Shown here: positions 30,568 to 46,018 of the stretch, piece after piece
Position numbering within the stretch: position 1 is the stretch's first letter
Layout: each line of letters starts with the position of its first letter
Assembly: GCA_013372975.1 (NCBI GenBank)
Contig: JABXIS010000017.1
Location: 62,001 to 126,000, forward strand
Source of the DNA: Alphaproteobacteria bacterium
GTDB taxonomy: Bacteria > Pseudomonadota > Alphaproteobacteria > Sphingomonadales > Kordiimonadaceae
DNA: 64,000 nucleotides
Reading direction: 5' to 3'
Position numbers and translations under genes: made by a program
Notes under the pieces: generated by a model
Database searches by the model: none
Told to the model about the DNA's origin: nothing
The model's input: only the letters and a program-made list of their open reading frames with translations

Positions 30568-30710
30568 ACCAAAATCCTGCTGTTCGTTTATCGTTGATTG
30601 CAGGTCTGTCATGAGCGGTTATGATAGATATTTCATGATCTTATCTGCGAGCGGTCTGTTTCTGCCTGCAAACGGCAAGGGCAGCCACGTACTTTGGGGC
30701 ACGGCATTTG

Positions 30711-32207
30711 ATGGCATTTCACATTGTGGCATTTCTCATTTTTATGCTCTGTGCGCCTTCTACGGTGGCGCAGGATATGCCCTTCCTTTTCATGAAGATA
30801 AACACGGTCTGCGAAGATTTGCCCGCGAGTGACATTCCGTCATTCACAGAACCCGAATGTAAACCAAACGATCGCTACAGACCTGATACCCAAGGGCGTT
30901 TCCTATGGATCAAGGGCACCGTAAATATCCCTGCCAGCATGATGGAAAGCGCTTACCCCCTTGGCCTGAATATTTCCGGGAAGGCGTCCATGGCCGCCTA
31001 TATTGGCGGGAAGGAAATTGGCAGAAACGGTACACCGCACGATCGGGCTGACAGGGAAATCCCCGGCCTGATTGATACCATCATCCCCCTAAACCGAGCG
31101 CTTCTGCACGAAGGGGAGAATGAAATCGTCATCGCCATGTCGGGCCACAAGGGATTCCTTTCCCTGCCCAACCCGATTGCGGTGCTGGCCGTTGGGCCCT
31201 TTCGCGATCCGACAGATTATGTGCTGCATCGTTATCTGCCTGCACTGCCTTTGCTCGGCCTCCTGATCGCGGGTTCGCTATATTTCGGCTTGCTCGCTTA
31301 CCGCCACGGTGACGACAGGACCAACCTGCTGCCCCCTCTGATCGCCCTGTTCGCCAGCATGCAAATGCTGACAGAAATCTCGCGCGGTTTTGTTGCCTAT
31401 AGCTACCAGTTTCATGACATCCGACTGGCCCTGATTATCCTGTTTGCGACACTGGGCGGCACCTGTTTGCTGGCCCATGTTGCCGCACGGTTTGCAAGGC
31501 CGCAGATGCGCACGATTGTGTTTGCCGGTACGCTGGCCACTCTTGCCGTCATCTATGTTACCCAGTCGTACGACAGCAAGGCGGCTTTCGCGCTCATGAC
31601 ACCGGCAATCATGGGGGCAATCATTTCCCTCGTTGGCATTCGCAAGGGGCTTCCAAGGTCAAAAGCCTATGCGGCAACGCTGACGGTTGGTGCATTCGCC
31701 ATTTTCAAAACCACATCAGACTTTCTGGACGTGTATTTCTATTATGTAGTCGCGGCCCTTTTGCTGTTTCTGTTTTTCCAGCAATTGCAGGATATGGCTG
31801 CCATCAAAGCCCAGCAAGCAGCGGATCAGGCCCGAACAGACAGGCTTGAGCTGGCGCTCGCCGAAGCCCGGCAGAAACAGGTGCCCAGTGCGGTCGCGGT
31901 GAAAACCAGCGGCGAAGTTGAAATGGTGCAAACGGAAGAACTGGTTTATTGCCAGGGTGCACGCGATTATGTGGAACTGGTTGTCACAGATGGCAGCCGC
32001 AAACTTCATGGCGGCAGCCTCACCGAGCTTGAAAAATCGCTCCCCATCACCTTCCTGCGTGTTCACCGGTCTTATATCGTGAACACCCGCTTTGTTGAAA
32101 AGCTGGAACGCGATGCGTCGGGTTCCGGCACACTTTCCCTTTCCGGGGGGGAGACTATTCCCGTCAGCCGCAGGATCATGCCAACGGTCAGGAAAGCCCT
32201 TTCATAA
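30711..32207 (+). CDS. Membrane-anchored LytTR-domain transcriptional regulator
   Basis: About 498 residues. It has a signal peptide (MAFHIVAFLIFMLCAPSTVAQ), a periplasmic beta-sandwich-like part (about 25-160) like the sensor domains paired with 7TM-DISM modules, seven or so membrane helices (about 170-355), a short coiled segment rich in A, Q and R, and a C-terminal LytTR DNA-binding domain (about 400-497, with ELVYCQGARDYVELVV and FLRVHRSYIVNTRFVEKLE). It would bind DNA while in the membrane and sense a periplasmic or membrane signal directly, without a histidine kinase. Target genes are unknown; the divergent serine hydrolase is a candidate. ATG at 30711 is preferred over the TTG just before it. 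Confidence 0.85.
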   Translation: MAFHIVAFLIFMLCAPSTVAQDMPFLFMKINTVCEDLPASDIPSFTEPECKPNDRYRPDTQGRFLWIKGTVNIPASMMESAYPLGLNISGKASMAAYIGGKEIGRNGTPHDRADREIPGLIDTIIPLNRALLHEGENEIVIAMSGHKGFLSLPNPIAVLAVGPFRDPTDYVLHRYLPALPLLGLLIAGSLYFGLLAYRHGDDRTNLLPPLIALFASMQMLTEISRGFVAYSYQFHDIRLALIILFATLGGTCLLAHVAARFARPQMRTIVFAGTLATLAVIYVTQSYDSKAAFALMTPAIMGAIISLVGIRKGLPRSKAYAATLTVGAFAIFKTTSDFLDVYFYYVVAALLLFLFFQQLQDMAAIKAQQAADQARTDRLELALAEARQKQVPSAVAVKTSGEVEMVQTEELVYCQGARDYVELVVTDGSRKLHGGSLTELEKSLPITFLRVHRSYIVNTRFVEKLERDASGSGTLSLSGGETIPVSRRIMPTVRKALS

Positions 32208-32258: not shown

Positions 32259-34373
32259 TTAGTCTGTAAGACCGCGTGCCTCAAGGATTGCATCCAGCTT
32301 GTATGGCCGGCCTTTGAATTCCTCGAACATTTCCATCGGATCGCGTGCACCGCGTGGCTCCAGAATACTGGTGCGTAAGCGTGCAGCCACTTCCTGATTG
32401 AAGAGGCCTTCTTCCGAGAAAGTGGCATAGGCATCTGCCGACAATACTTCCGACCACAGGTAGGTATAATAGCCCGCCGCATAGGCAGCCCCACCAAAGG
32501 CATGGTTGAAGTATGGCGTACGGTAGCGCACGACAATCTCGTCAATCAGGCCGATTTCATCCAGAAGCGACTTTTCAAATGCGGCAACATCTGTGTCGTC
32601 CGAGATTTTCCGCGTGTGCCACATCATGTCCATCAAGGCGGCAGATACATATTCCACGGTCGCAAAACCCTGATTGAATTTGGACGCCGCTTCCATGCGC
32701 TCGATCATGCTTTCAGGGAGCACTTCGCCGGTTTTATAGTGTTTTGCATATTCGCGCAGCATTTCAGGCTCAAACGCCCAGCCCTCAAAAATCTGGCTAG
32801 GGAACTCAACAAAGTCCCACGCCAGGCTATTCAAGCGGCCATAAGTAACTTCAGACATCAGCGTATGCATGGCGTGGCCGAATTCGTGGAACAGTGTGCT
32901 CGCATTGTCTGCCGACAACAGCGGCGGTACGTCGCCTGAGCCTTTCGGGAAGCTCATCACATTCACTACGATCGGCGTTACCTTGCCATCAACCTTGGTT
33001 TGGGCACGGAAGCTGTTGTTCCAGGCACCACCGCGCTTCGACGCGCGCGGGTGATAGTCCGCGAGGAACAGGCCAAGGTAAGAACCATCCTTTTCATACA
33101 CTTCAAACACCTGCACATCTTCATGATAGGTGTCGATGTCAGTGCGCTGCTTGAAGGTCAGGCCCCACAATTTATTGGCTGTTTTGAAGGCACCGTCGCG
33201 CACGTTATTGAGCACGAAATAGGGCTTCACGGCCTGCTCATCCAGGTCATATTTGGCCTTGCGTACCTTTTCGGCATAGTGCCACCAGTCCCATGGCTGA
33301 AGGTCAAAATCATGGCCTTCCTCGCGCACCATGGCCTGAAGCATTGCGCGTTCTTCCTTGGCTTTTTCAAGCGCAGGCGCCCAGATACGATTGAGAAGCT
33401 CAAACGCCCGATCCGGATGGCCCATCATGCGATCCGCCATCTGGAATTCTGCATGGTTCTTGTAGCCCAACAGCTCGGCCCGCTTTTGCCGCGCCTTCAG
33501 GATTTGTTTCACAAGGCCTGTGTTGTCATGGGCGCTGCCCTTCTCGCCGCGCGCCATATAGCCCTTGTGCATTTTCTCCCGCAGGTCTCTGCGCGTGGAA
33601 AAGGTCATGAAGGGTGTGAAGGACGACCGTGTGCTTGTGAACATCCATTTGCCCGGTTGGCCCCGGTCTTCCGCCGTGGAGGCAGCGGCTGCAATTACAA
33701 AGTCAGGCAGTCCTGCCAGATCGGCTTCTTTGTCCACAACCATTTCAAATGCATTGGTCGCCGCCAATACATTCTGGCCGAACTTGATCGTAAGGCCCGA
33801 AATTTCCTCATTCAGTTTTGCCAATTCCGCTTTTGCGGCTTCGTCCAAATTGGCGCCTGCACGGGTGAAATCCAGATGTGTACGCCACAGCATACGCTGC
33901 TGCTCGGCATTCAGGCCCAGGCTGTCACGCTTCTGGTAAAGCGCATCCACACGGTCAAACAGCTTCTTGTTAAAGAGCGTATCGTTGGTGTGACGAGAGA
34001 ACATGGCGGAAATTTCGCTCTGGATTGCCCGCATCTCGTCGTTCGAGTGCGAACTGGTCAGGTTGTAGAAAACACCGGAAACCTTGTTGAGAAGCTTGCC
34101 ACCCTTATCAAGCGCCGCGATGGTGTTCTCAAACGTAGGTGCCGCCGGATTATTGGCAATTGCATTAATTTCAGCCCGGTTTTCTGCAAAGGCACGCTCG
34201 AATGCAGGTTTGTAATGAGCGTTTTCAATGTTGCTGAACGGGGGCGCACCGTGTGGTGTAGTCCATTCTTCAAAAAACGGGTTGTTGTCCTCTGCTGTCG
34301 TCATTGGCGCCATCATCGGCAATGCGAGGCCCATAAGCGCCGCAGCCATGGCTGCTCTTCCAATTTTTTTCAT
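32259..34373 (-). CDS. Exported M3-family metallopeptidase (peptidyl-dipeptidase Dcp-like)
   Basis: 704 residues. The zinc-binding motif HEFGHAMH (about residue 490) with a downstream glutamate region (EFPSQIFEGWAFEPEML) defines the M3 thimet-oligopeptidase family. Overall length and the start FFEEWTTPHGAPPFSNI match Dcp, which removes dipeptides from peptide C-termini. A signal peptide (MKKIGRAAMAAALMGLALPMM...TTA) points to a periplasmic enzyme, unlike the cytoplasmic oligopeptidase A. Start at 34373 with AAGGGGAAA upstream. It is monocistronic with its own terminator and probably scavenges peptides. Confidence 0.93.
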   Translation of the reverse strand: MKKIGRAAMAAALMGLALPMMAPMTTAEDNNPFFEEWTTPHGAPPFSNIENAHYKPAFERAFAENRAEINAIANNPAAPTFENTIAALDKGGKLLNKVSGVFYNLTSSHSNDEMRAIQSEISAMFSRHTNDTLFNKKLFDRVDALYQKRDSLGLNAEQQRMLWRTHLDFTRAGANLDEAAKAELAKLNEEISGLTIKFGQNVLAATNAFEMVVDKEADLAGLPDFVIAAAASTAEDRGQPGKWMFTSTRSSFTPFMTFSTRRDLREKMHKGYMARGEKGSAHDNTGLVKQILKARQKRAELLGYKNHAEFQMADRMMGHPDRAFELLNRIWAPALEKAKEERAMLQAMVREEGHDFDLQPWDWWHYAEKVRKAKYDLDEQAVKPYFVLNNVRDGAFKTANKLWGLTFKQRTDIDTYHEDVQVFEVYEKDGSYLGLFLADYHPRASKRGGAWNNSFRAQTKVDGKVTPIVVNVMSFPKGSGDVPPLLSADNASTLFHEFGHAMHTLMSEVTYGRLNSLAWDFVEFPSQIFEGWAFEPEMLREYAKHYKTGEVLPESMIERMEAASKFNQGFATVEYVSAALMDMMWHTRKISDDTDVAAFEKSLLDEIGLIDEIVVRYRTPYFNHAFGGAAYAAGYYTYLWSEVLSADAYATFSEEGLFNQEVAARLRTSILEPRGARDPMEMFEEFKGRPYKLDAILEARGLTD

Positions 34374-34530: not shown

Positions 34531-35133
34531 CTATAACGTCAGAAAATTCGCCAAAACTTCATCAGCCAAATCAGTCAGTGTCAGCTTCCCATCTGTCTGG
34601 AACCAGTTTTTTGACCAGGCGTTGGCACCCCGGATCAACTGCCGAGCAATGCGCGGATCCGATTTGATCAAACCGGCCGCCGCACACCCGTCAAGCGCCT
34701 CTGCCCAGCAGCGTTCATAACTAGTATCCCGGATCGCGAGCACGGCTTCGCGGTATTCTTCATCAAGGCTGCGCCATTCGTCCACCAACACATAGGCGGC
34801 ATGCTCCCCATCCCGGTGCACATGGCTCAGCTCACACAGCACCAACGCCCGCAACTGATCAACCGGATCATCAAGGCCATCCACTGCTTTTTCCGCGGCT
34901 TCCCCCATGCCGCGAGTCGTCAGTGCCATAGCGGTAAAGAGGATTTCCTGCTTGCTTTTGAAATGATGAAACAGGCTGCCCGACAAGATGCCTGCGCGCG
35001 CGGCAATGTCCCGCACGGTCGTTCGTTCGAAGCCTTTTTCATAAAATAAATCAATGGCTACGCGCAAAAGCCGTTCTTTTGCAGGGCTTATGTTTTCCAC
35101 ATCTGGCAGCAATTGTTTCAGGGCTTCGGTCAT
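34531..35133 (-). CDS. TetR-family repressor of the adjacent acyl-CoA operon
   Basis: 200 residues. The N-terminal HTH is typical: RLLRVAIDLFYEKGFERTTV, RDIAARAGILSGSLFHHFKSKQEIL. The C-terminal helical domain is variable and would bind the inducer. The gene is divergent from the carboxylase/BKACE operon with 93 bp between the start codons, and the intergenic dyad at 35165-35184 is its likely operator. By analogy with AtuR, LiuR or KstR2-type regulators the inducer could be an acyl-CoA of the pathway; this is inferred from context only. Confidence 0.9.
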   Translation of the reverse strand: MTEALKQLLPDVENISPAKERLLRVAIDLFYEKGFERTTVRDIAARAGILSGSLFHHFKSKQEILFTAMALTTRGMGEAAEKAVDGLDDPVDQLRALVLCELSHVHRDGEHAAYVLVDEWRSLDEEYREAVLAIRDTSYERCWAEALDGCAAAGLIKSDPRIARQLIRGANAWSKNWFQTDGKLTLTDLADEVLANFLTL

Positions 35134-35161: not shown

Positions 35162-35191
35162 TTGACAACCAAGCGCTTGCTTGTTTTTAAT
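35162..35191 (+). promoter_or_regulatory. Operon promoter with overlapping TetR-type operator
   Basis: TTGACA (35162-35167) is a consensus -35 box, with an AT-rich -10 candidate near 35185-35191. Over the -35 and spacer lies a 20-bp dyad (35165-35184) with 18 of 20 positions symmetric and a perfect 10-bp core CAAGCGCTTG (35170-35179). The core and flanks fit A-N-CAAG-N2-CTTG-N-T, the pattern reported for the TetR-family regulator KstR2. Binding here would block RNA polymerase. The transcript start and the binding are not shown by the sequence. Confidence 0.65.
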
Positions 35192-35226
35192 TAATGAAAG
35201 AAATTAAATCAAGTGGAAGGGCGCAT

Positions 35227-36108
35227 ATGTCTGGGGAGGCAGGGTATCAGTCCGTTTTTCGTGCCGGGCTGTTTGGCGGCAAACGCATTATCGTCACGGG
35301 TGGCGGCAGCGGCATCGGGCGCTGCACCGCGCATGAGTTGGCGTCCCTCGGGGCCGAGGTTATCATCACCGGTCGCACGCAGGAAAAGCTGGATAGGGTT
35401 CAGGCCGAAATCATCGAGGATGGCGGCAAATGCACCACCCGCGCTTTCGATATACGGGATGAAGAGGCGGTGGCGGCCACCATTGCAGCCATTCTTGAGG
35501 ATGGGCCTGTCCACGGCCTTGTGAACAATGCGGGCGGCCAATATCCCTCCCCCCTTGAAGCCATCTCAACCAAAGGCTTTGAAACGGTGCTCAGAACCAA
35601 TGTGGTCGGCGCCTTCAACATGACACGCGAGCTTGTCACCCAGTCCATGAAGGATACGGGCGGCGCGGTTGTGAATATCACGGCTGATTTCCATGATGGC
35701 ATGCCCACCATGGGGCACTCCGGGGCCGCACGGGCCGCTTGCGAGAATTTCACAAAAACAGCCGCTGTGGAATGGGGCCGCTTCGGTGTGCGCATCAATT
35801 CGGTCGCGCCCGGCTGGGTGGCATCCTCCGGCTTCGACAGCTATGAAGACCCAACCTCCAAGGCGATGATCCCGCAACTCAAGAATCTGGTGCCCTTGGG
35901 CCGCATTGCCACTGAAGCGGAAATCGCCAGCGCGATTGTGTTTCTGCTGAGCGACGGCGCTGCCTTTATCTCGGGCGCCAGCCTGCGGGTTGATGGCGCC
36001 AGCAGCCTCTTCAGCCCGCTATTTCCACCACAGGGCGCCAAAAACAGCGAAAGCTATCAGGGCTTCCACCGCTACAAAGTGCCCAAAATTCTGGGTGGGG
36101 GAGACTGA
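35227..36108 (+). CDS. PECR-like short-chain dehydrogenase/reductase
   Basis: About 293 residues with a Rossmann TGGGSGIG cofactor motif (about 24-31) and NNAGG. The usual YxxxK catalytic pair is absent. At that place the protein has GHSGAARAACENFTKTAAVEW, the signature of peroxisomal trans-2-enoyl-CoA reductase (PECR)-type SDRs, so an NADPH-linked enoyl-CoA or dienoyl-CoA reductase is the best guess. First gene of an eight-gene operon of acyl-CoA enzymes; atu clusters also carry SDR genes (atuB, atuG). I chose ATG at 35227, behind GGAAGG, over the earlier ATG at 35194, which lies close to the predicted -10. Confidence 0.85.
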   Translation: MSGEAGYQSVFRAGLFGGKRIIVTGGGSGIGRCTAHELASLGAEVIITGRTQEKLDRVQAEIIEDGGKCTTRAFDIRDEEAVAATIAAILEDGPVHGLVNNAGGQYPSPLEAISTKGFETVLRTNVVGAFNMTRELVTQSMKDTGGAVVNITADFHDGMPTMGHSGAARAACENFTKTAAVEWGRFGVRINSVAPGWVASSGFDSYEDPTSKAMIPQLKNLVPLGRIATEAEIASAIVFLLSDGAAFISGASLRVDGASSLFSPLFPPQGAKNSESYQGFHRYKVPKILGGGD

Positions 36109-36109
36109 T

Positions 36110-37717
36110 ATGCCCGCACTTGTCAGCACAATCGACGCCGGTTCAGACACCTTCCAGAAAAACGCCGCTGCGATGCAGGCCGCAATGGACGAAATCGCCG
36201 CCATTGAGGAACTGAAAGCGGCAGCGCAGGAAAAGGCCCGCGCGCTGTTTGACAAACGCGGCAAGCTCCTGCCCAAGGAACGATTGGCACTGCTTCTTGA
36301 TCCCGGCGCACCATTCCTCGAACTGTCTGCCCTTGCGGGATACAAAATGTATGACGACCGGGATGGCTCGGGCGCTGGCGGCTCCATCGCGGGCATTGGT
36401 TATGTGTCAGGCAAGCGCTGCATGGTGATCGTGTCCAACAGCGCGGTCAAAGGTGGCACGGTAACACCCGCCGGGCTCAACAAATCCCTGCGCCTGCAGA
36501 ATATCGCCATGGAAAACAGGCTGCCTGTTGTTGGCCTGATGGAAGGCGGCGGCGCCAACCTGCAGCATGTGTCTGACATGTTCGTCGAAGGTGCGCGTAG
36601 CTTTGCAAATCAGGCACGGCTTTCAGCCGCTGGCATGCCGCAGATCACTGTAGTGCATGGCAGCAGCACGGCGGGCGGCGCTTACCAACCGGGCCTGTCG
36701 GACTATGTGGTGATGGTGCGCGGGCGGTCGAAAGTTTTCCTCGCGGGCCCACCGCTTTTGAAGGCAGCCACCGGCGAAATCGCCAAGGATGAAGAGCTTG
36801 GCGGTGCCGAGCTGCATGCAGAGGTAACCGGCACCGCCGAATATCTGGCGGAAGACGACGCAGACGGTATCCGTTATGCCCGCGAAATTATGTCACGCCT
36901 GCCATGGAAAGCGCCAAATACCAGCCAAGATGACTACCCCGCACCCGCATATCCGACCGAAGATCTGATCGGCGTGGTGCCCGCAGACGCCAAAACACCC
37001 TATGACGTGCGCGAGGTGATCGCCCGGCTGGTGGACGCGTCAGACTTCCTTGATTTCAAAAATGATTACGACAGCCAAACCGTGTGCGGGCACGCCAGCA
37101 TCGCAGGCCAAACCGTGGGCATCATTGGCAACAATGGCCCCATCACACCCATCGGCGCCACCAAGGCCGCCCAATTTGTGCAGCTCTGTGATCAGGCGGG
37201 CATTCCGATCCTGTTCCTCCATAACACCACCGGCTTTATGGTGGGCAAGGACGCCGAGGCAGGCGGTATTGTCAAACACGGGTCAAAGCTTATTCAGGCG
37301 GTCACCAACGCGCGGGTGCCGCGCATCTCCATTCATATCGGCGGCAGCTACGGTGCAGGCAACTATGCCATGTGTGGCCGGGGCGTGGACCCCCGTTTTG
37401 TCTTTTCCTGGCCCAATGCCAAAACCGCCGTCATGGGTGGCGCGCAGGCAGGCATGGTGCTCCGGATCGTGGGCACCGAAAAAGCCAAACGCATGGGCGA
37501 AGAGCCTGACGAAGTCGCGCTCAAGGCCATGGAACAGGCCACAGCAAGCCAGATGGATGCCTGTTCGACAGCCCTTTATGGCACCGCGCGCCTGTGGGAC
37601 GACGGCATCATAGACCCGCGCGATACCCGTAACCTTTTGATTTACCTGCTTGATGTCTGCCGGGACGCGGACACCCGCGAAACCCGGCCAAACACATTCG
37701 GCGTTGCACGCTTCTAG
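36110..37717 (+). CDS. Acyl-CoA carboxylase, carboxyltransferase (beta) subunit
   Basis: 535 residues with the two crotonase-like carboxyltransferase halves: the N-terminal half has RERL-like KERLALLLDPGAPFLEL and GSSTAGGAYQPGLSDYVVMV, and the C-terminal half has GNNGPITPIGATKAAQFVQLCD, LFLHNTTGFMVG and GAGNYAMCGRGVDPRF. It transfers CO2 from biotin to an acyl-CoA. Sequence and context fit the methylcrotonyl-CoA/geranyl-CoA carboxylase branch (LiuB/AtuC); which substrate is used cannot be fixed by eye. ATG at 36110, one base after the SDR stop, with GGGGGAG upstream. Partner: the biotin-carrying alpha subunit at 39662. Confidence 0.93.
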   Translation: MPALVSTIDAGSDTFQKNAAAMQAAMDEIAAIEELKAAAQEKARALFDKRGKLLPKERLALLLDPGAPFLELSALAGYKMYDDRDGSGAGGSIAGIGYVSGKRCMVIVSNSAVKGGTVTPAGLNKSLRLQNIAMENRLPVVGLMEGGGANLQHVSDMFVEGARSFANQARLSAAGMPQITVVHGSSTAGGAYQPGLSDYVVMVRGRSKVFLAGPPLLKAATGEIAKDEELGGAELHAEVTGTAEYLAEDDADGIRYAREIMSRLPWKAPNTSQDDYPAPAYPTEDLIGVVPADAKTPYDVREVIARLVDASDFLDFKNDYDSQTVCGHASIAGQTVGIIGNNGPITPIGATKAAQFVQLCDQAGIPILFLHNTTGFMVGKDAEAGGIVKHGSKLIQAVTNARVPRISIHIGGSYGAGNYAMCGRGVDPRFVFSWPNAKTAVMGGAQAGMVLRIVGTEKAKRMGEEPDEVALKAMEQATASQMDACSTALYGTARLWDDGIIDPRDTRNLLIYLLDVCRDADTRETRPNTFGVARF

Positions 37718-37732
37718 GGGGAAGGAAACACC

Positions 37733-38881
37733 ATGCTTTTTACAGACCAGCACAATGAACTGAGGCGCACAGTCGCCCGTTTTGTCGCCGAAGAGGTGAA
37801 CCCACATGTGGACGAATGGGAAGAAGCGGGCATTTTCCCGGCCCACGAATTGTTCAAAAAAATGGGCAACCTGGGCCTTCTGGGCATTTCCAAACCGGAA
37901 GAATTTGGCGGCCTCGGCCTCGATTATTCCTACGAAATGGTGCTGGCCGAAGAACTGGGCGGCATCAACTGTGGTGGCGTGCCCATGGGTATCAGCGTGC
38001 AAACCAATATGGCCACCCCTGCCCTTGCACGCTTCGGCTCTGATGAGCTGCGGCACGAGTTCCTCGCCCCCGCCATCGCGGGCGATATGGTGTGTTCGAT
38101 TGCCGTATCCGAACCCCATGCGGGCTCAGACGTGGCAGCGATCAAAACCACCGCAGTGAAGGACGGCGATGACTATGTAATCAATGGCACCAAAATGTGG
38201 ATCACCAATTCCACACAAGCCGATTTCCTCTGCCTTCTGGCCAACACGGGCGAAGCCCCCGCCCACAAGAACAAATCGTTGATCGTGGTGCCAACAGATA
38301 CGCCCGGCGTCAGTTTCTCGGAAAAACTGAACAAACTGGGGATGCGCTCGTCCGACACCGCACAGATATTCCTTGATGATGTGCGGGTACCGCAACGTCA
38401 CCTGATCGGGCGCGAAGGCGACGGTTTCCGCATGCAGATGATGCAGTTTCAGGAAGAACGCCTGTGTGCGGCCATGTTGGGCCCCAAAGGCCTGTCCGAC
38501 ACCATCCAGCGCACCATCGACTATACACGTGACCGGCAAATCTTTGGTGGCGCCGTGCTCGATAATCAAGTGGTGCAATATCGGCTGGCCGAACTGCAAA
38601 CCGAAGTGGAGGCGCTGCGGGCGCTGGTGTGGCACGCCACCGAACAATATATCAACGGCGTGGACGTTACCAAGCTCGCCACCATGGCCAAGCTGAAAGC
38701 CGGCCGGCTTGCACGCGAAGTGCCGGATGCCTGCCTCCAATATTGGGGTGGCATGGGCTTCATGTGGGACAATCTGGTTGCCCGGTCCTACCGCGACGGA
38801 CGGTTGAGCTCTATCGGTGGCGGGTCCGACGAAACCATGCTTCGCATCCTGACCAAGATCATGGGTATGTCCAATGGTTGA
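37733..38881 (+). CDS. Acyl-CoA dehydrogenase (citronellyl-CoA dehydrogenase-like)
   Basis: 382 residues of the FAD acyl-CoA dehydrogenase family: CSIAVSEPHAGSDVAAIKT (first signature, about 121-139), MWITNS, LGMRSSDTAQIFLDDVRVP and a C-terminal QYWGGMGFMWDNLVARSYRDGR, followed by SSIGGGSDETML, where the catalytic glutamate would lie. The GGGxDE ending differs from the EGTNQI ending of straight-chain enzymes and resembles those acting on branched or terpenoid acyl-CoAs. Its place between carboxylase beta and a hydratase mirrors atuD between atuC and atuE. It would make the alpha,beta-unsaturated CoA ester that the carboxylase needs. The stop overlaps the next start. Confidence 0.9.
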   Translation: MLFTDQHNELRRTVARFVAEEVNPHVDEWEEAGIFPAHELFKKMGNLGLLGISKPEEFGGLGLDYSYEMVLAEELGGINCGGVPMGISVQTNMATPALARFGSDELRHEFLAPAIAGDMVCSIAVSEPHAGSDVAAIKTTAVKDGDDYVINGTKMWITNSTQADFLCLLANTGEAPAHKNKSLIVVPTDTPGVSFSEKLNKLGMRSSDTAQIFLDDVRVPQRHLIGREGDGFRMQMMQFQEERLCAAMLGPKGLSDTIQRTIDYTRDRQIFGGAVLDNQVVQYRLAELQTEVEALRALVWHATEQYINGVDVTKLATMAKLKAGRLAREVPDACLQYWGGMGFMWDNLVARSYRDGRLSSIGGGSDETMLRILTKIMGMSNG

Positions 38882-39665
38882 TGAAGCCCCGATCCTGATC
38901 AGCCAGGCTGGCGGCGTGATGTATGTCACCCTCAACCGGCCCCATGCGCGAAACGCCATGAATGGCGCCATGGTTGAGGCCCTTATGGCGGCTTTTGATA
39001 GCGCCGAGGCCGACCCCGGCGTGCGCATCATGGTGCTTCGGGGGGCAGGCGGCGTTTTCTGCGCGGGTGGTGACCTCAAAGGCTTTGCCACAGGCCCCAA
39101 AACGCCTGATGCCATCACCAAAGGCAACCGCCTGTTCGGCACGTTGCTTGAGCGCGCACAGGCTTTCCCCAAGCTTCTGATCAGCTTCTGCCGCGGGGCC
39201 GCTATGGGCGGCGGGTTTGGCCTTGTGTGTGTATCCGATATCGCCATTGCAGACGCTGATTGCCGCTTTGGCATGCCTGAAGTAACGCTTGGGCTGGTAC
39301 CGGCCCAGATCGCGCCTTTCGTGTGCGCCCGCATTGGCCTGACGCACACACGCAATCTTGCCCTCACTGGCGCCATCATTTCTGGCAAGAAAGCCCGCAA
39401 GCTGGGGCTGGTGCATTATGCTGAAGCTGGCGCCCTGGCGATGGACCAGAGGCTGACTGATATTCTCAAACAGGCGCATAAAGCTGCGCCCGAAGCTCTG
39501 GCCGCAACCAAACAAATGCTGATCGGCATGGGGAACACTGTTACCCCCGAAACGCTCGATAAGGCGGCAGAGCTGTTCACGGCCTCGCTCGGGGGTGAAG
39601 GGCGCGAGGGCACGCAGGCGTTTGCAGAAAAACGGTTACCTGCATGGGCGGAGGGCCACGCATGA
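38874..39665 (+). CDS. Enoyl-CoA hydratase, methylglutaconyl- or isohexenylglutaconyl-CoA type
   Basis: 263 residues of the crotonase fold: LNRPHARNAMNGAMVEAL, the oxyanion-hole segment FCAGGDLKGFA, and GAAMGGGFGLVCVSDIAIA, then CRFGMPEVTLGLVPAQIAPFV with the remaining catalytic glutamate. The GGGFGL wording (no glutamate at the first catalytic site) is usual for hydratases of the LiuC/AtuE type that act on carboxylated glutaconyl-CoA esters. It would hydrate the product of the carboxylase. It overlaps the preceding gene by 8 nt and the next gene's ribosome-binding region lies inside its end. Confidence 0.88.
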   Translation: MVDEAPILISQAGGVMYVTLNRPHARNAMNGAMVEALMAAFDSAEADPGVRIMVLRGAGGVFCAGGDLKGFATGPKTPDAITKGNRLFGTLLERAQAFPKLLISFCRGAAMGGGFGLVCVSDIAIADADCRFGMPEVTLGLVPAQIAPFVCARIGLTHTRNLALTGAIISGKKARKLGLVHYAEAGALAMDQRLTDILKQAHKAAPEALAATKQMLIGMGNTVTPETLDKAAELFTASLGGEGREGTQAFAEKRLPAWAEGHA

Positions 39666-41614
39666 TCAAGCGTCTTCTGATCGCCAACCGGAGTGAAATT
39701 GCAGTGCGGATCATGCGCACGGCAAAAGCCATGGGCATTCATACCATCGCAGTTTATTCAGAGGCCGACAAAGCCGTGCAGCATGTGAAATTGGCTGACA
39801 GCAGCATCTGTATAGGCCCGGGGCCCGCGACAGAATCCTACCTCAGCATCGGCGCTATCCTGAATGCCGCCCGTGAAACTGGCGCGGATGCCATCCATCC
39901 GGGTTATGGTTTCCTGTCTGAAAATCCGGACTTTGCGGAAGCGGTGACGAACGCTGGGTTAATCTTCGTGGGGCCAACCGCCGATGTGATCCGGCAGATG
40001 GGGTGCAAACGTACCGCGCGCCAAATCGCCGACAAGGCAGGCGTACCGGTGGTGCCGGGCTTTGACGGTACAGATACAGACGATGCCGTCCTTTTGGCCG
40101 AAGCAAAAAGCATCGGCGTGCCCTTGATGATCAAAGCCACAGCGGGTGGTGGTGGGCGCGGCCTGCGCCGTGTGGACAGGCTGGACGACTTCACTGACGC
40201 CCTCGCCAGCGCCCGGCGGGAAGCCGGATCAGCCTTCGGTGATAGCGGGATCATCCTTGAAAAACTGATCGAGGATGCCCGCCATGTGGAAGTGCAGATA
40301 TTGGCCGATAGCCAAGGCACCGTCTTGCATTTGTTTGAACGGGATTGTTCGAGCCAGCGGCGTCATCAGAAAGTAATAGAAGAAGCCCCCTGCGCCACGA
40401 TTTCCGATGAAACACGCGCAGCCCTCACATCGGCAGCCGTCAAACTGGCAAGCGAAGTTGGCTATACGGGGGCCGGCACGGTTGAATTTTTGGTAGATGA
40501 AAAAGGCGCCATCTATTTCCTTGAAATGAACACCCGCCTGCAGGTGGAACATCCTGTGACCGAACTGGTGACAGGCCTTGATCTGGTGGCGGAACAGCTG
40601 CGGATTGCAAGCGGCCAGGCCTTGGCGCTCACGCAAAGCGATGTTTCGATCTCAGGGCATGCCATCGAAGCCCGCCTTTATGCCGAGGACCCGGCCCAAC
40701 ACTTTATGCCACAAACAGGCACATTGGGCGTGTTCGATATTCCCACGCCCGCAGGCGCGCGGCTGGATAGTGGCGTAATCGCGGGTGATACGGTCAGCCC
40801 CTATTACGACCCGATGCTGGCGAAACTGATCGCCCACGGTCAAACGCGGGAAGACGCACGCCTGCGCCTTCTTGCCATGCTGGCGGGCAGCCGTATTGCG
40901 GGCCTTGGCACCAATAAAGCCTGGCTGTCCCATCTGCTGAAAAGTGAGCCTTTCAGCACGGGCGCCACGCGAACCCATACGCTGGAACATTCAGCCACGT
41001 TCCTTCCCGTGCCCGCCATCAAACAGGCATTGGCCATTGCGCTGATCATGCAGGCAAATGCGCTGAAGGAAAGCCCGATGCCGGGCCTTGGTGGCTGGAC
41101 CAATCTTTCGGGCGCAAAAACACGCCGTATCCTTGAGGTTGCAGGGGAACGTATTTCTGTTGAAACCCGGCAAACCAAAACCGCACAAGGTTGGGATATC
41201 ACGGTTGCTGCAGAGGGAGAGACACGCATTGCGTCTTTTGACGGCGAGATTTTCACATACAAAGGTGAAAAGGTGCATGCCCGCCACTGGACAGATGGTA
41301 ACCACCATTATGCCGACCTGGGCCGCTGGCATTTTGCCGCAATCGATATCACCCACGCGCCAGCCGAAAAATCAGGCGGCGCAGGCACAGGCAAACTGGC
41401 GGCCCCGATGGATGGCCAGATTGTTGCCGTTGCCACCGCAAACGGCGAAAACGTCAGCGCGGGGGACCTGATCTGCGTGATCGAAGCCATGAAAATGGAA
41501 CATCACATCCGCGCCGATATGGACGGCACAATATCAGAATTGACCGCAAGCGTGGGCGCACAGGTGAAAGCCAGAGCACCCCTTGCCACCATTACACCGG
41601 GGGAACCATCATGA
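39662..41614 (+). CDS. Acyl-CoA carboxylase, biotin carboxylase / biotin carrier (alpha) subunit
   Basis: 650 residues. The biotin carboxylase part (1-450) has IKRLLIANRSEIAVRIMRT, HPGYGFLSENPDFA, the ATP-grasp glycine loop IKATAGGGGRGLR and EMNTRLQVEHPVTEL. A carboxylase-association region follows, and the C-terminal biotinyl domain carries the biotin lysine in EAMKMEHHIRA. With the beta subunit at 36110 it forms a methylcrotonyl/geranyl-CoA-type carboxylase (LiuD/AtuF). I chose ATG at 39662 because GGAGGG lies 6 nt upstream and MIKR is the family start; an earlier ATG at 39644 would add six residues. It overlaps BKACE by 4 nt. Confidence 0.93.
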   Translation: MIKRLLIANRSEIAVRIMRTAKAMGIHTIAVYSEADKAVQHVKLADSSICIGPGPATESYLSIGAILNAARETGADAIHPGYGFLSENPDFAEAVTNAGLIFVGPTADVIRQMGCKRTARQIADKAGVPVVPGFDGTDTDDAVLLAEAKSIGVPLMIKATAGGGGRGLRRVDRLDDFTDALASARREAGSAFGDSGIILEKLIEDARHVEVQILADSQGTVLHLFERDCSSQRRHQKVIEEAPCATISDETRAALTSAAVKLASEVGYTGAGTVEFLVDEKGAIYFLEMNTRLQVEHPVTELVTGLDLVAEQLRIASGQALALTQSDVSISGHAIEARLYAEDPAQHFMPQTGTLGVFDIPTPAGARLDSGVIAGDTVSPYYDPMLAKLIAHGQTREDARLRLLAMLAGSRIAGLGTNKAWLSHLLKSEPFSTGATRTHTLEHSATFLPVPAIKQALAIALIMQANALKESPMPGLGGWTNLSGAKTRRILEVAGERISVETRQTKTAQGWDITVAAEGETRIASFDGEIFTYKGEKVHARHWTDGNHHYADLGRWHFAAIDITHAPAEKSGGAGTGKLAAPMDGQIVAVATANGENVSAGDLICVIEAMKMEHHIRADMDGTISELTASVGAQVKARAPLATITPGEPS

Positions 41615-42486
41615 CAGACAAAGCCATCCTGACCTGTGCGCTCACAGGCGTACTGACGGACCCGACCCAACATAATGTGCCGGTAACGCCCGAACAAATG
41701 GCGGCTGAGGCCAAGGCAGCTTATGATCAGGGTGCCACGATCATGCATTGCCATTACAGGCAACAGGAAGCGGGCAAAGGCCACCTGCCTAGCTGGGATG
41801 GGGCATTGGCGCTTGAAATCAATGACGCCATTCGCGCCGCCTGCCCTGACGTGGTGATCAATATGACCACAGGTGTCGTGGGCCGGGACCAGTCAGACGT
41901 GCTGGACTATCTCGCCCACTGCAAACCAGAAATGGCTGCGATGAACGCGGGCACGCTCAATTACCTGAAAACCCGGCGCGACGGCAACTGGGCGTGGCCG
42001 CCAATGACCTTCCAGAACCCGGTGGACAAAGTGGCTGAGATGCTTGAGTGCATGCGCACATACAATATCGTGCCCGAGTTTGAATGTTTCGATATCGGCA
42101 TCTTGCGGTCCGTGGGCCTTTATATCGAGAACGGCATGGTCAGCCGCGCCGACGTGAATTTTGTGATGGGAGTGGCGTCCGGTATGCCGTGTGACGCTGA
42201 CCTCTTGCCACTTCTCGTGAAATACCGTCCCGAAGGCAGCCCCTGGCAGGCCACATTGATTGGCCGCCAAAACGTCTGGCCGGTGCATCAGCGGGTGGCG
42301 GAGCTGGGCGGTAACCTGCGCACGGGACTTGAGGATTGCTTCTATCTGCCAAATGGCGACAAGGCGCGGTCAAACGGCGAGATGATCGAAGCCCTTGCCG
42401 CCTGCGCCCGTAATGCCGGACGGGAGGTCATGACACCCGCCGAAACCCGCGCCCATGTGGCAGAACTGGGCTGGAGCCAGGCATGA
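41611..42486 (+). CDS. BKACE-family beta-keto acid cleavage enzyme (DUF849)
   Basis: 291 residues. The family (3-keto-5-aminohexanoate cleavage enzyme and relatives) is a zinc TIM barrel that converts a beta-keto acid plus acetyl-CoA into acetoacetate and a new acyl-CoA. Visible are LTCALTGVLTDP at the start, the metal HxH in TIMHCHYRQ (about residue 46), INMTTGVVGRD, MAAMNAGTLNY and the catalytic glutamate in LRTGLEDCFYL. It is coupled by ATGA overlaps to both neighbours in the carboxylase operon. Classic atu/liu operons carry AtuA or HMG-CoA lyase instead, so this step may differ here; the substrate is unknown. Confidence 0.88.
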   Translation: MTDKAILTCALTGVLTDPTQHNVPVTPEQMAAEAKAAYDQGATIMHCHYRQQEAGKGHLPSWDGALALEINDAIRAACPDVVINMTTGVVGRDQSDVLDYLAHCKPEMAAMNAGTLNYLKTRRDGNWAWPPMTFQNPVDKVAEMLECMRTYNIVPEFECFDIGILRSVGLYIENGMVSRADVNFVMGVASGMPCDADLLPLLVKYRPEGSPWQATLIGRQNVWPVHQRVAELGGNLRTGLEDCFYLPNGDKARSNGEMIEALAACARNAGREVMTPAETRAHVAELGWSQA

Positions 42487-43661
42487 TCCCGAACCTGCAA
42501 TCCTTTGGTTTCTCAGCCGAGCAGCAAGCCCTGTATGACACCGCCTACCGCTATGGAGAGAAAGAGCTTTGGCCGCTTCTGCCCAAAATGGATGATGAAG
42601 ACTGGTTCCCGGCCGAGGCCTATCGCGCCATGGCAGACACCGGCTTTCTAGGCACCACTGTGCCGGAAAACTTTGGCGGCGCGGCGCTTGATTTCACAAG
42701 TCAGGCCCTGCTTGCCGAGGCCTTCAGCTATTGGAACCACTGCCTTTCGGCCAGTTGGGGCGCCAGCGAAAACCTGTGCATCAACAATATTGTCAGAAAC
42801 GCGAACGAAGCCCAGAAGGCCAAATATCTGCCCATGTTCACCGCGGGTGCCATCGGCGCCTTGGGGCTGACAGAGCCGGGGGCCGGGTCAGACGCGCTTG
42901 GTTCCATGGCTACCACCGCCCGGCGGGATGGTGACCACTATGTGCTCAATGGCCGCAAGATGTTCATCACCAATGGCCCTGTGGCCGATATCCTTCTGGT
43001 GTATGCCAAAACCAATCCCGAGGCGGGCGCACACGGCATCTCGGCCTTCATCGTGGAGAAGGAGTTTCCCGGTTTTGAAGTGGCCCAGAAGCTGGACAAA
43101 ATGGGCTGGCGCGGCAGCCCAACGGGCGAACTGGTATTTAATGATTGCCATGTGCCTGCAGAAAACCTGATAGGTGCGGAAAACCACGGTGTGGCTGTGG
43201 TGATGAGCGGACTCAATATCGAGCGGGTGTTCCTGTGCGCGTCCTCAATTGGTGTAGCCCAGCGCGCGCTGGACCTGAGCCTTGACTACGCCAAGGAACG
43301 CGCCCAGTTCGGCAAACCGATCGGGCATTTCCAACTGGTGCAGGGCCTTCTGGCAGACATGTATACCGACGTAGAGACCATGCGCGCCACATCCTACCAG
43401 CTCCTTAAGGAAGTGAATGATCTGGAACGCGGCGGCGGTGGGCGCGGCCCTGTGCATATGCGTAGCGCCATGGCGGCCCTGCACACGGGACGGGCCATGA
43501 TGCGGGTGCTGGATAACGCCGTGCAAATCCATGGCGGCATGGGCTTTATGCGGGAAACAGAAGTGAACCGGCTGTATCGGTCCGGCAAAGTGATCGAGAT
43601 TGGCGCGGGCACCAACCAGATCAGGCAATCCATTATCGCGCAGGAACTATTGAAAGCTTGA
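42483..43661 (+). CDS. Acyl-CoA dehydrogenase (isovaleryl-CoA dehydrogenase-like)
   Basis: 392 residues. FAD acyl-CoA dehydrogenase motifs: GALGLTEPGAGSDALGSM, MFITNGPVADILLVYAKT, MGWRGSPTGELVFNDCHVP, and a C-terminal AVQIHGGMGFMRETEVNRLYR followed by IEIGAGTNQIRQ. The catalytic glutamate appears to lie in GLNIERVFLCAS, the position used by isovaleryl-CoA dehydrogenase, and TNQI replaces the usual EGTxQI glutamate. It fits branched acyl-CoA substrates. As the second dehydrogenase of the operon it may act before or after the chain shortening done by the other enzymes. ATG overlaps the BKACE stop. Confidence 0.92.
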   Translation: MIPNLQSFGFSAEQQALYDTAYRYGEKELWPLLPKMDDEDWFPAEAYRAMADTGFLGTTVPENFGGAALDFTSQALLAEAFSYWNHCLSASWGASENLCINNIVRNANEAQKAKYLPMFTAGAIGALGLTEPGAGSDALGSMATTARRDGDHYVLNGRKMFITNGPVADILLVYAKTNPEAGAHGISAFIVEKEFPGFEVAQKLDKMGWRGSPTGELVFNDCHVPAENLIGAENHGVAVVMSGLNIERVFLCASSIGVAQRALDLSLDYAKERAQFGKPIGHFQLVQGLLADMYTDVETMRATSYQLLKEVNDLERGGGGRGPVHMRSAMAALHTGRAMMRVLDNAVQIHGGMGFMRETEVNRLYRSGKVIEIGAGTNQIRQSIIAQELLKA

Positions 43662-43671
43662 GGGGGCAGCT

Positions 43672-45351
43672 ATGTGGGGAGGCAATCACGTGCAGGCAGG
43701 CATAAGAACAGCACTTGAGGATTTGGGCCATTGGGCAAACGTAAAAGCTGATACGCCTTTTCTGATAGATCTTGCGGCGGGTCAGCAATCCCCCATCAGT
43801 TGGGCGGAAGCGCATGAGATGGTGGGCCAGATGGCGGCAGCCCTTCACGCCCGGCTGGGGCACGGCAAGAAAGCGGCTATCTTGTCAAAAAACCGGGCAC
43901 ACTGGATATTGGCAGACCTTGCAATCCTTGCGGCAGGCAACCTCACGGTACCGGTGTTCACCACCATGCGCCCTGACACCTTCAATTATGTGCTGGATTT
44001 CGCTGATGTAGAGCTGCTGTTTCTGGGGGAAAGCACCAACTGGGCCGACGTGAAACCGTACCTGCCTGACGGCATTACTGTGGTTACGTTGCCCGGCATT
44101 GATCCCGCCGAAGGTGACCTGACATGGGATACCCTGCTGGCCGAAGGACAAACCACCCCTGCCCCGAAGGGGCACGAAAAAGAAGATATCGCCACCTTGA
44201 TCTTCACCTCTGGCACAACGGGCAAACCAAAGGGGGTGATGCATTCCCTCGGCAGTTTGGGCCGCGCCACCCATGCGCTTGTCACGGAGACCAAATCGGA
44301 AGACGGTTGGCGCTTCATATCCTATCTGCCGCTGGCCCATCTGGCGGAACGGCTGATCATCGAACTGCACTGCCTGCATGTGGGTGGCACCATCTATTTC
44401 AACGAAAGCCTGGAAACATTCGCGGCTGATCTTTCCGTGGCGGAACCGGATTATTTCTTCGGTGTGCCGCGCATCTGGGACAAACTGAGCCAAGCCGTAA
44501 TCGCGGGCACTGACGGTGGCGCCGATACACTCAAGGCCGCACTCACAGGCCCGAACGCAAACATGGTGGCTGCCATGGTGCGGGATAAACTCGGGCTATC
44601 CAGCGTGAAGAAGATGGTATCCACCACCGCGCCAGTGCCGCCCCATATCAAGGAATGGTTCAAACTGTTTGGCCTGCCCCTGATGGACGGGTATGGCCAA
44701 ACCGAAATCCTGCCCATTGCCACCACGCCCGAAGGCAGCAACAAGCCGGAAAGTGTGGGCAAACCGATCCCCGGCGTGGAAGTGCGCATAACGGAAGAAG
44801 GCGAGTTGGTCGCGCGCGGCCCCGGTTGCAGCTTGGGCTATTACAAGATGCCCGAGAAAACAGCCGAAACATTCAGGGACGGCTGGGTCCATACCGGTGA
44901 CAGGGCCGAACTGGACGAGGACGGCTTTGTTATCCTCAAAGGCCGAGTTAAGGAAACCTTCAAAACCGCCAAGGGCAAATATGTGGCCCCCATGCCGATT
45001 GAGGCCCGTTTCCTGGAAAGCGACCTTCTTGATCAGGCCTGCCTTGTGGGCCATGGCCTTGCCCAGCCCGTGTTGCTCTTGGTGATTGCGGAAACCGCCA
45101 CAGGTGAAACAGAGGCCTCGCTTGAGGCCCATATCCGCCAGCAGGTAGCAGACATAAACCGCTCGCTGGAACGCCATGCACAGATGGGAGCGGTTTTGGT
45201 GGCACCAGAACCCTGGACGATCGAGAACGCCATCCTTACCCACACCATGAAAGTGCGGCGGGAGCGGGTGCTGGAACGTTTTGGTGCAGATATCGAAAAG
45301 GCCGCCCAAAGCATCAGCAGCGGGGCGGCCCTGTCGGTAACCTTCCTGTAG
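43672..45351 (+). CDS. AMP-forming acyl-CoA ligase
   Basis: 559 residues of the adenylate-forming family. The ATP-binding P-loop-like TLIFTSGTTGKPKGVMHS (about 176-193), DGYGQTEILPIA (A5 motif), GWVHTGDRAELDEDGFVILKGR (A7-A8) and FKTAKGKYVAPMPIE (A10 region with lysine) are present. The layout is that of long-chain type ligases. As the last gene of the operon it probably activates the free acid that enters the pathway, the role of AtuH in atu clusters. ATG at 43672 with GAGGGGGC upstream, 10 nt after the dehydrogenase stop. It meets the convergent oxidase gene with a single base between stops. Confidence 0.9.
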   Translation: MWGGNHVQAGIRTALEDLGHWANVKADTPFLIDLAAGQQSPISWAEAHEMVGQMAAALHARLGHGKKAAILSKNRAHWILADLAILAAGNLTVPVFTTMRPDTFNYVLDFADVELLFLGESTNWADVKPYLPDGITVVTLPGIDPAEGDLTWDTLLAEGQTTPAPKGHEKEDIATLIFTSGTTGKPKGVMHSLGSLGRATHALVTETKSEDGWRFISYLPLAHLAERLIIELHCLHVGGTIYFNESLETFAADLSVAEPDYFFGVPRIWDKLSQAVIAGTDGGADTLKAALTGPNANMVAAMVRDKLGLSSVKKMVSTTAPVPPHIKEWFKLFGLPLMDGYGQTEILPIATTPEGSNKPESVGKPIPGVEVRITEEGELVARGPGCSLGYYKMPEKTAETFRDGWVHTGDRAELDEDGFVILKGRVKETFKTAKGKYVAPMPIEARFLESDLLDQACLVGHGLAQPVLLLVIAETATGETEASLEAHIRQQVADINRSLERHAQMGAVLVAPEPWTIENAILTHTMKVRRERVLERFGADIEKAAQSISSGAALSVTFL

Positions 45352-45352
45352 G

Positions 45353-46018
45353 CTAGTGCGCGCCTGAACCCGCGCCTTTCGGCAGCTTGCCTTCGGCCAA
45401 CTGGTCGGCGAACAGGTGATTGCGGTCCCGGTGGCCGGCTTCATCTTCGCGTACAACCAGAACCACATCTCGCAGGGTGGCCGCGGCCCCAAGGCCCCAA
45501 TAATCAATGGCGATCTGGGGTGCTGGCACATTTTCATGCCGCCCGGCGTCGATCTCAGCCAGATAGTGGGTATAGCTTGTAACCGCTTCTTCCTCGAAAT
45601 ATCCCACCACCCGGTGGGCAGTCTTGGGCGCAAACAGATAGAGGAAGAAATAAAGGTTATAGAAAATCGCCTGTGTGATCATGATCACCGCGCGTTCAAA
45701 CAAAGTGGGCTGCGCCACATGGATGAAGGTCATCAGATGCATGCGCTCGTTGTCTGCTTCCTCGAGCAGTTCCTTCACCCAACCTTCGTCATCGCGAATT
45801 TGCCGAAGGGCCTTCAGGTGTTGCAGCAAACCTCCCACCATGCCTGGCACCGCCGCCACGGTTTCCAGCACCACAGCCCGGTGGCCATAGCGTTTGGCGA
45901 AGAAGGTATCAGCGAAGAAGCGCAAAAGCTTCACAAAGCCGAAGGCAACGTGGTCGGATATGCCCTTCGGCACATAATGCGGGTTTTGATATTCCTTTGG
46001 GGCAGTTTGTTGGGCCAT
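45353..46018 (-). CDS. aox: Alternative oxidase (AOX), cyanide-insensitive ubiquinol oxidase
   Basis: 221 residues. All AOX di-iron ligand motifs are present: [13 protein letters not shown] (E52), [11 protein letters not shown] (E91, H94), [12 protein letters not shown] (E143) and [12 protein letters not shown] (E193, H196), with the two hydrophobic stretches of a monotopic membrane protein (about 50-65 and 108-130). AOX takes electrons from ubiquinol and reduces oxygen to water without pumping protons. It is common in plants and fungi and patchy in bacteria. The N-terminus is short, without a mitochondrial leader, as expected for a bacterial form. Start at 46018 behind GGGAGAG. It stands alone; flavoprotein electrons from the neighbouring acyl-CoA dehydrogenases could reach it through ubiquinol, which is inference. 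Confidence 0.95.

Follow-up and report, generated by a model that had tools for sequence, protein, structure and literature searches.

A BKACE gene within an acyclic-terpene-type carboxylase operon of a Kordiimonadaceae bacterium suggests a second way of cutting a branched chain

Introduction

Which enzyme cuts the branched carbon chain when an operon resembling those for acyclic terpene degradation carries a BKACE (DUF849) gene, and neither AtuA nor 3-hydroxy-3-methylglutaryl-CoA (HMG-CoA) lyase is found inside it? This question is raised by a stretch of 64,000 nt (the window) from an alphaproteobacterium of the Kordiimonadaceae (assembly GCA_013372975.1, contig JABXIS010000017.1, positions 62,001 to 126,000). 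The window is part of a 3.6-Mb genome labeled G000; G and L numbers denote the genomes and loci compared. A divergent TetR-family gene is followed by genes for a short-chain dehydrogenase/reductase (SDR), carboxylase beta subunit, acyl-CoA dehydrogenase, hydratase, carboxylase alpha subunit, BKACE, a second dehydrogenase, and a ligase, and the operon spans positions 35227 (SDR start) to 45351 (ligase end). Family membership, the operator, the linkage of the BKACE clade to carboxylases, and a tendency toward mutual exclusion of BKACE and AtuA were computed from genome data. Together they suggest that the BKACE operon is a variant of the known atu pathway, and they point to a second way of cutting the branched chain.

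For 3-hydroxy-3-isohexenylglutaryl-CoA, both the cleavage enzyme and the side on which it cuts differ between the published accounts consulted. A review, in its accessible text, names LiuE (PMC4097962), and the available parts of two other papers name AtuA, in one case as speculation. Because operons exist in AtuA and BKACE forms, and because BKACE is chemically sensible mainly with a free beta-keto acid and acetyl-CoA, the question of cleavage side is directly testable. Among the matches listed in a literature search that left most subscription journals outside, none linked BKACE to terpene or geranyl-CoA breakdown. The route proposed below, if true, would provide a natural role for an uncharacterized branch of the promiscuous BKACE family, as well as a means of degrading branched isoprenoid-type acids that is plasmid-borne in one case.

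An operon of the geranyl-CoA carboxylase kind

The original prediction likened this operon to the acyclic-terpene (atu) operons, and the comparison has held up. The beta subunit matches the solved structure of geranyl-CoA carboxylase (GCC; 5ikl_B) with 811 bits and that of methylcrotonyl-CoA carboxylase (MCC; 3u9r) with 509 bits. According to the accessible text of Jurado et al. (PMC4673880), Phe191 of MCC corresponds to Gly162 of GCC, and a three-residue insertion is present there in MCC. The loop of the window protein reads VEGAR, like that of 5ikl, and the insertion is missing from it, whereas LiuB of the same genome has an insertion containing Phe. With the letter equivalent to Gly162 assigned here by chain count, the subunit is of the GCC type as judged by sequence closeness, a small pocket residue, and the absent insertion, and its activity on geranyl-CoA is putative.

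The closest solved relative of the hydratase is isohexenylglutaconyl-CoA hydratase (AtuE; 4zu2_A, 255.4 bits), followed by 4k3w (221.1 bits), and the protein falls below the cut-off of the NCBIfam gamma-carboxygeranoyl-CoA hydratase model (148.8 of 426 bits). GCC and MCC are not separated by the alpha subunit, which has only three matches at the E limit (9tps_G, 536.5 bits; 3u9s_A, 529 bits; 9yx0_D, 512 bits). Solved structures gave no specific relative for dehydrogenase 1, and none for the ligase at E 1e-40. Because a GCC-type beta subunit and an AtuE-like hydratase are joined by an exact AtuR operator, the operon is assigned by its sequence to the acyclic-terpene (GCC) kind.

This operator, CCAAGCGCTTGCT, lies in the gap between the TetR and SDR genes, between the promoter-like elements TTGACA and TTTAAT. 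It is one of two AtuR sites quoted for the atuA promoter of Pseudomonas aeruginosa in the accessible text of PMC9973270. A second, separate operator like that of P. aeruginosa was not found. When up to two mismatches are allowed, the window holds five matches against 2.98 expected, and so it is the exactness and position of the site that carry the evidence. An alternative ATG at 35194 would yield a longer SDR, but the start at 35227 is likelier because the upstream ATG sits directly after the -10 box.

The core of the operator, CAAGCGCTTG, occurs in the TetR-SDR gap of all seven Kordiimonadaceae operon loci (the window, L033-L036, L085, and L086). It is also found, without mismatch, upstream of three stand-alone gammaproteobacterial BKACE genes (L047, L048, and L055, in G068, G069, and G075, respectively), as well as upstream of the separate carboxylase operons in these same genomes (L151, L152, and L084). 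A scan of 126 loci for the exact core gave 15 sites at 14 loci, of which 10 are upstream sites of the kind just described and five are intragenic; upstream of the remaining BKACE loci the scan found none. Loci longer than 4200 bases hold 18 core sites in 1.6 Mb, and with one mismatch allowed 24 loci matched, several of the sites being intragenic. The divergent TetR protein is likely an AtuR-like repressor of the operon.

Chance or a misreading of the operon is ruled out, since all ten proteins exceed the cut-off of one or more Pfam families and relatives keep the gene order. The genes from SDR to ligase behind TetR had been predicted with this order, these families, and these outer bounds, all of which are confirmed; the second dehydrogenase, directly after BKACE at 42483-43661, was missing from that earlier list. 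Translational coupling of BKACE to the alpha subunit had also been proposed, and the 4-base overlap at this junction is genuine, as is that between BKACE and dehydrogenase 2.

The operon shares with the Pseudomonas atu cluster a TetR regulator, an identical 13-base operator, an SDR, a GCC-type beta subunit, a dehydrogenase, an AtuE-like hydratase, an alpha subunit, and a ligase, and in both systems an HMG-CoA-type lyase (LiuE in Pseudomonas) is encoded outside the cluster. It differs in that AtuA is missing from the genome, BKACE and dehydrogenase 2 lie inside the operon, and one operator was found rather than two. The liu operon for leucine and isovalerate likewise combines a dehydrogenase, both carboxylase subunits, and a hydratase. 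A liu assignment is ruled out, however: separate liuB-C-D-A genes exist in the genome (L088), and the beta subunit of this operon is of the GCC type without the MCC insertion.

A BKACE clade linked to acyl-CoA carboxylases

An alignment with 2y7d confirmed that the HxH motif, which we take to bind the metal, and the Glu-Asp motif, which is presumably catalytic, are intact in the window BKACE, as had been predicted. Both are invariant in the 35 aligned members of its clade. The candidate substrates are a beta-keto acid and acetyl-CoA. A quick tree of 45 BKACE proteins unites the 35 members of the clade (support 100) and sets them apart from Kce and from nine distant relatives, taken from the 24 that had been aligned. 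The clade has a long stem in the tree and is marked by NYLK-like and W-x-x-H stretches.

The window protein shares with Kce the family profile (PF05853) and both motifs. It differs in belonging to the separate, carboxylase-linked clade, and 89 of 261 aligned positions are identical. The Glu position of Kce is Leu in all 35 clade members, but it is also Leu in five of the 24 distant relatives, and this residue was rejected as a clade hallmark. A BKACE clade of known and unrelated substrate had been foreseen as an alternative explanation for the gene, and nothing found so far points to one. The window protein falls below the NCBIfam equivalog cut-offs for lysine-derived keto acid (177.8 of 382 bits), 3-oxoadipate (154.8 of 350 bits), and dioxohexanoate (142.7 of 430 bits), and these scores, together with the clade tree, leave a known substrate unsupported.

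A scan of genome contigs yielded 32 BKACE loci, 26 of which carry a carboxylase subunit. The six that do not are L047, L048, L053, L055, L056, and L061; the last two lie on contigs shorter than 8 kb, and the genomes of the other four encode a GCC-type beta subunit elsewhere. In the same genus, G010 and G011 hold the orthologue. The reading of BKACE as a conserved part of an atu-type operon is supported.

The association also extends to a plasmid of Haematobacter massiliensis (Rhodobacterales; L155, NZ_CP035514.1), the single match among 72,556 plasmid records at the limit used. There, BKACE, a carboxylase, hydratases, dehydrogenases, and a thiolase lie behind a GntR regulator, and the beta subunit is 51% identical to that of the window and 45% identical to LiuB. 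Three Rugamonas clusters (L051, L052, and L054) have an extra dehydrogenase and hydratase beside BKACE, and the intervening gene of L051 encodes a thiolase. A second, distant BKACE of G000 (L002/L090, G000:C78:14244-15071) is 29% identical to that of the window, and the surrounding stretch that was examined carries no carboxylase.

AtuA and BKACE across genomes

AtuA had been predicted to be missing from the operon, and PF07287 has no match in the whole of G000. Six of the 15 same-genus genomes that lack the orthologue were searched, and all six have full-length AtuA; in four of these the gene directly follows that for the alpha subunit (L076, L078, L079, and L080). Among the four BKACE genomes of the genus, three are without AtuA and G001 has a weak match (27% identity). 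Weak matches (G001, G081, and G135) were scored as absent throughout.

A class-wide draw of 387 genomes contained 28 with a window-type carboxylase at E 1e-200. Besides G000 these are 27 genomes, of which 26 have full-length AtuA and one (G135) a weak match, and only G082 has a BKACE of the clade. In one of the 27, AtuA and the carboxylase share a locus (L109). Neither AtuA nor BKACE is present on 25 of the 27 geranyl-type carboxylase loci L091-L117 (the exceptions being L093, with BKACE, and L109), and AtuA is encoded elsewhere in nearly all of these genomes.

Counted over 61 carboxylase genomes, 26 have BKACE only, 31 have AtuA only, three have both (G070, G075, and G082), and one has neither (Fisher p 7e-13, uncorrected for descent). 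The count joins two groups gathered differently, one via BKACE and the other via the carboxylase, and includes genomes reached through contigs whose completeness is not stated. Five loci (L038, L050, L056, L061, and L064) lay outside the AtuA search, and the counts do not include L064 or L118, the latter being a second cluster in G082. The search found no AtuA in the genomes of L060 and L062 (G079 and G080), which lack a GCC-type carboxylase and stand outside the 61. None of 84 mapped loci holds AtuA and BKACE together. BKACE and AtuA tend to exclude each other.

In a quick carboxylase tree, which contains long branches, BKACE linkage amounts to nine changes, at least seven of them forced by starred branches. 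One BKACE-linked locus, L049, is nested within an AtuA-linked carboxylase subfamily, and its genome (G070) also has AtuA. The AtuA-linked carboxylases of Kordiimonas make up two other subfamilies, which weakens the idea that BKACE replaced AtuA within a single, strictly orthologous operon of that genus.

A candidate route through LiuE and BKACE

The tertiary alcohol formed by the hydratase cannot be oxidized to a keto group. Because of this, the carbon-carbon bond would have to be cut either before BKACE acts or by BKACE itself. An intermediate of the form HOOC-CH2-C(OH)(R)-CH2-CO-SCoA can be cleaved on two sides.

In the route that we favor, with roughly even confidence, an atu-type operon under an AtuR-like repressor employs LiuE and then BKACE to form acetoacetate and a shorter acyl-CoA. 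The ligase, dehydrogenase 1, the carboxylase, and the hydratase would convert a beta-methyl-branched acid into 3-hydroxy-3-R-glutaryl-CoA. A LiuE-type HMG-CoA lyase would then cut on the CoA side, releasing acetyl-CoA and the free beta-keto acid R-CO-CH2-COOH. This free-acid route suits BKACE because such a cut yields exactly its two substrates, from which it would make acetoacetate and R-CO-CoA; the latter could return to beta-oxidation through dehydrogenase 2. In the leucine case, where R is methyl, the BKACE step would be futile. In relatives without BKACE, AtuA would instead cleave this type of intermediate on its carboxylate side, giving a 3-oxoacyl-CoA and acetate. We infer the substrates, the products, and the order of the two enzymes, the last from chemistry rather than from linkage. 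Of the route originally predicted, the cleavage to acetoacetate and a shorter acyl-CoA survives as the best reading.

The BKACE family takes its name from the cleavage of beta-keto acids with acetyl-CoA. The accessible text of PMC4922564 gives aminobutyryl-CoA and acetoacetate as the products of Kce. In the anaerobic degradation of naphthalene, the AtuA-like enzymes ThnQ and ThnS cleave on the side of the carboxylate, as described in the available part of a report that presents this partly as unpublished work (PMC12016498). The published Pseudomonas route, as outlined in the accessible text of the review, includes LiuE supplied from the liu genes (PMC4097962). The single solved match to AtuA, 9erq, is weak (E 1.3e-4) and is named for the AtuA family and citramalate lyase. 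LiuE itself, according to what Chavez-Aviles et al. are said to have found, also cleaves the terpene intermediate.

The original prediction included no recognizable lyase. This is accurate for the operon, but the route would not be lyase-less, since G000 encodes an HMG-CoA lyase elsewhere (G000:C51:96787-97722; 307.8 bits against a cut-off of 246), and a LiuE-like lyase is present in all 25 BKACE genomes searched (from the 29 counted in the comparison with AtuA). The G000 gene is on the same contig as liuB-C-D-A, about 88 kb away and outside their operon (L087 and L088). The suggested look-up of atuA and liuE elsewhere in the genome thus returned the lyase and no AtuA. Two CoA-transferase domain pairs in G000 are candidates for acetoacetate activation.

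Several observations weigh against the LiuE-then-BKACE route. LiuE is not visibly co-regulated with BKACE: a LiuE-like gene was found at none of the 32 BKACE loci, and the region upstream of LiuE in G000 has no match to the operator pattern. The accessible text of the review gives the product of LiuE as a CoA ester plus acetate (PMC4097962). L060 and L062, which branch deepest among the clade members that have a linked carboxylase, come from genomes without a GCC-type beta subunit (best identity 45-47%). Once corrected for descent, the exclusion of AtuA by BKACE is not significant: in most draws, seven independent starred-branch pairs gave five for, none against, and two equal, with p 0.0625. 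The three genomes with both genes also run counter to strict exclusion. Finally, the AtuA-linked carboxylases of Kordiimonas fall in other subfamilies with other pocket loops, and so the substrates may differ. The operator proved unproductive as a route to a co-regulated lyase in G000: a looser pattern had 15 matches, and among the 10 examined (two of which form one palindrome) only the operon's own site is intergenic.

Alternatives to the candidate route

An alternative that we judge unlikely, though it fares best among those considered, is that BKACE acts as the lyase, a metal-dependent enzyme with a TIM-barrel fold that cuts 3-hydroxy-3-R-glutaryl-CoA directly and does the job of AtuA without LiuE. 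The clade would then have taken over carbon-carbon bond cleavage in a pathway of the acyclic-terpene type, repeatedly replacing AtuA, and unrelated enzymes would open the same tertiary-alcohol intermediate, with acetoacetate as the end product in one case and acetate in the other. The tendency of AtuA to be excluded where BKACE occurs is in keeping with this, as are its position after the alpha subunit in four Kordiimonas operons, which BKACE occupies here, and the lack of LiuE on BKACE loci. The long stem and distinctive motifs of the clade would also fit, and family relatives with other chemistry are known, such as the cis-epoxysuccinate hydrolase 5zmu. The invariant HxH and Glu-Asp motifs argue for the ordinary reaction, however, and a free beta-keto acid with acetyl-CoA demands no novel chemistry. 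Moreover, an AtuA operon coexists in G075 with a BKACE gene that has the same operator core upstream.

Less probable still, in our estimation, is that the operon is directed at a different branched compound, such as a longer isoprenoid or a methyl-branched acid. The presence of BKACE or AtuA would then follow the substrate and would not represent alternative routes for a single intermediate. The divergent carboxylase subfamilies and pocket loops of the Kordiimonas AtuA operons favor this explanation, and in G082 AtuA and another carboxylase form a cluster (L118) distinct from that of BKACE (L093). Against it stand the operator, identical to one site of the citronellol operon, and the placement of BKACE-linked L049 inside an AtuA-linked subfamily, albeit in a genome that also has AtuA. 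We regard it as improbable that BKACE has a salvage function, recapturing 3-oxo acids set free by hydrolysis or a side reaction while another enzyme makes the main cut. Co-occurrence with AtuA in G070, G075, and G082 might imply such a function, but the overlapping operon genes suggest a main-line role, as does the fact that 26 of the 29 counted BKACE genomes lack full-length AtuA.

Gene map and neighboring genes

The features that make up the operon and its control region are collected in Table 1.

Table 1. Positions in the window of the operon genes, the divergent regulator gene, and the control elements
Feature	Position	Strand	Basis
TetR-family regulator	34531-35133	-	PF00440, PF17932; AtuR-type operator between TetR gene and operon
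Promoter-like TTGACA (35162-35167), 18-base spacer, TTTAAT (35186-35191)	35162-35191	+	Read from sequence
Operator CCAAGCGCTTGCT	35169-35181	+	Exact match to one of two 13-base P. aeruginosa AtuR sites
SDR, AtuB/AtuG position	35227-36108	+	PF13561
Carboxyltransferase beta subunit, geranyl-CoA carboxylase (AtuC) type	36110-37717	+	5ikl_B, 811 bits; GCC-like loop
Acyl-CoA dehydrogenase 1, AtuD position	37733-38881	+	PF00441, PF02770, PF02771
Crotonase-family hydratase, AtuE-like	38874-39665	+	Best solved relative 4zu2, 255 bits
Biotin carboxylase and carrier, alpha subunit	39662-41614	+	PF00289, PF02786, PF02785, PF00364
BKACE (DUF849), carboxylase-linked clade	41611-42486	+	PF05853, 264.5 bits against a cut-off of 24.8
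Acyl-CoA dehydrogenase 2, isovaleryl-CoA dehydrogenase-like	42483-43661	+	Best solved relative 4o5m, 339 bits
AMP-forming acyl-CoA ligase, AtuH position	43672-45351	+	PF00501

At the end of the operon, an alternative oxidase gene (45353-46018, minus strand; PF01786, 277.7 bits) lies tail to tail with the ligase gene. Beyond the TetR gene, inspection by eye revealed an M3-type metallopeptidase with an HEFGH motif (32259-34373, minus strand) and a membrane protein whose C-terminal domain is LytTR-like (30708-32207, plus strand).

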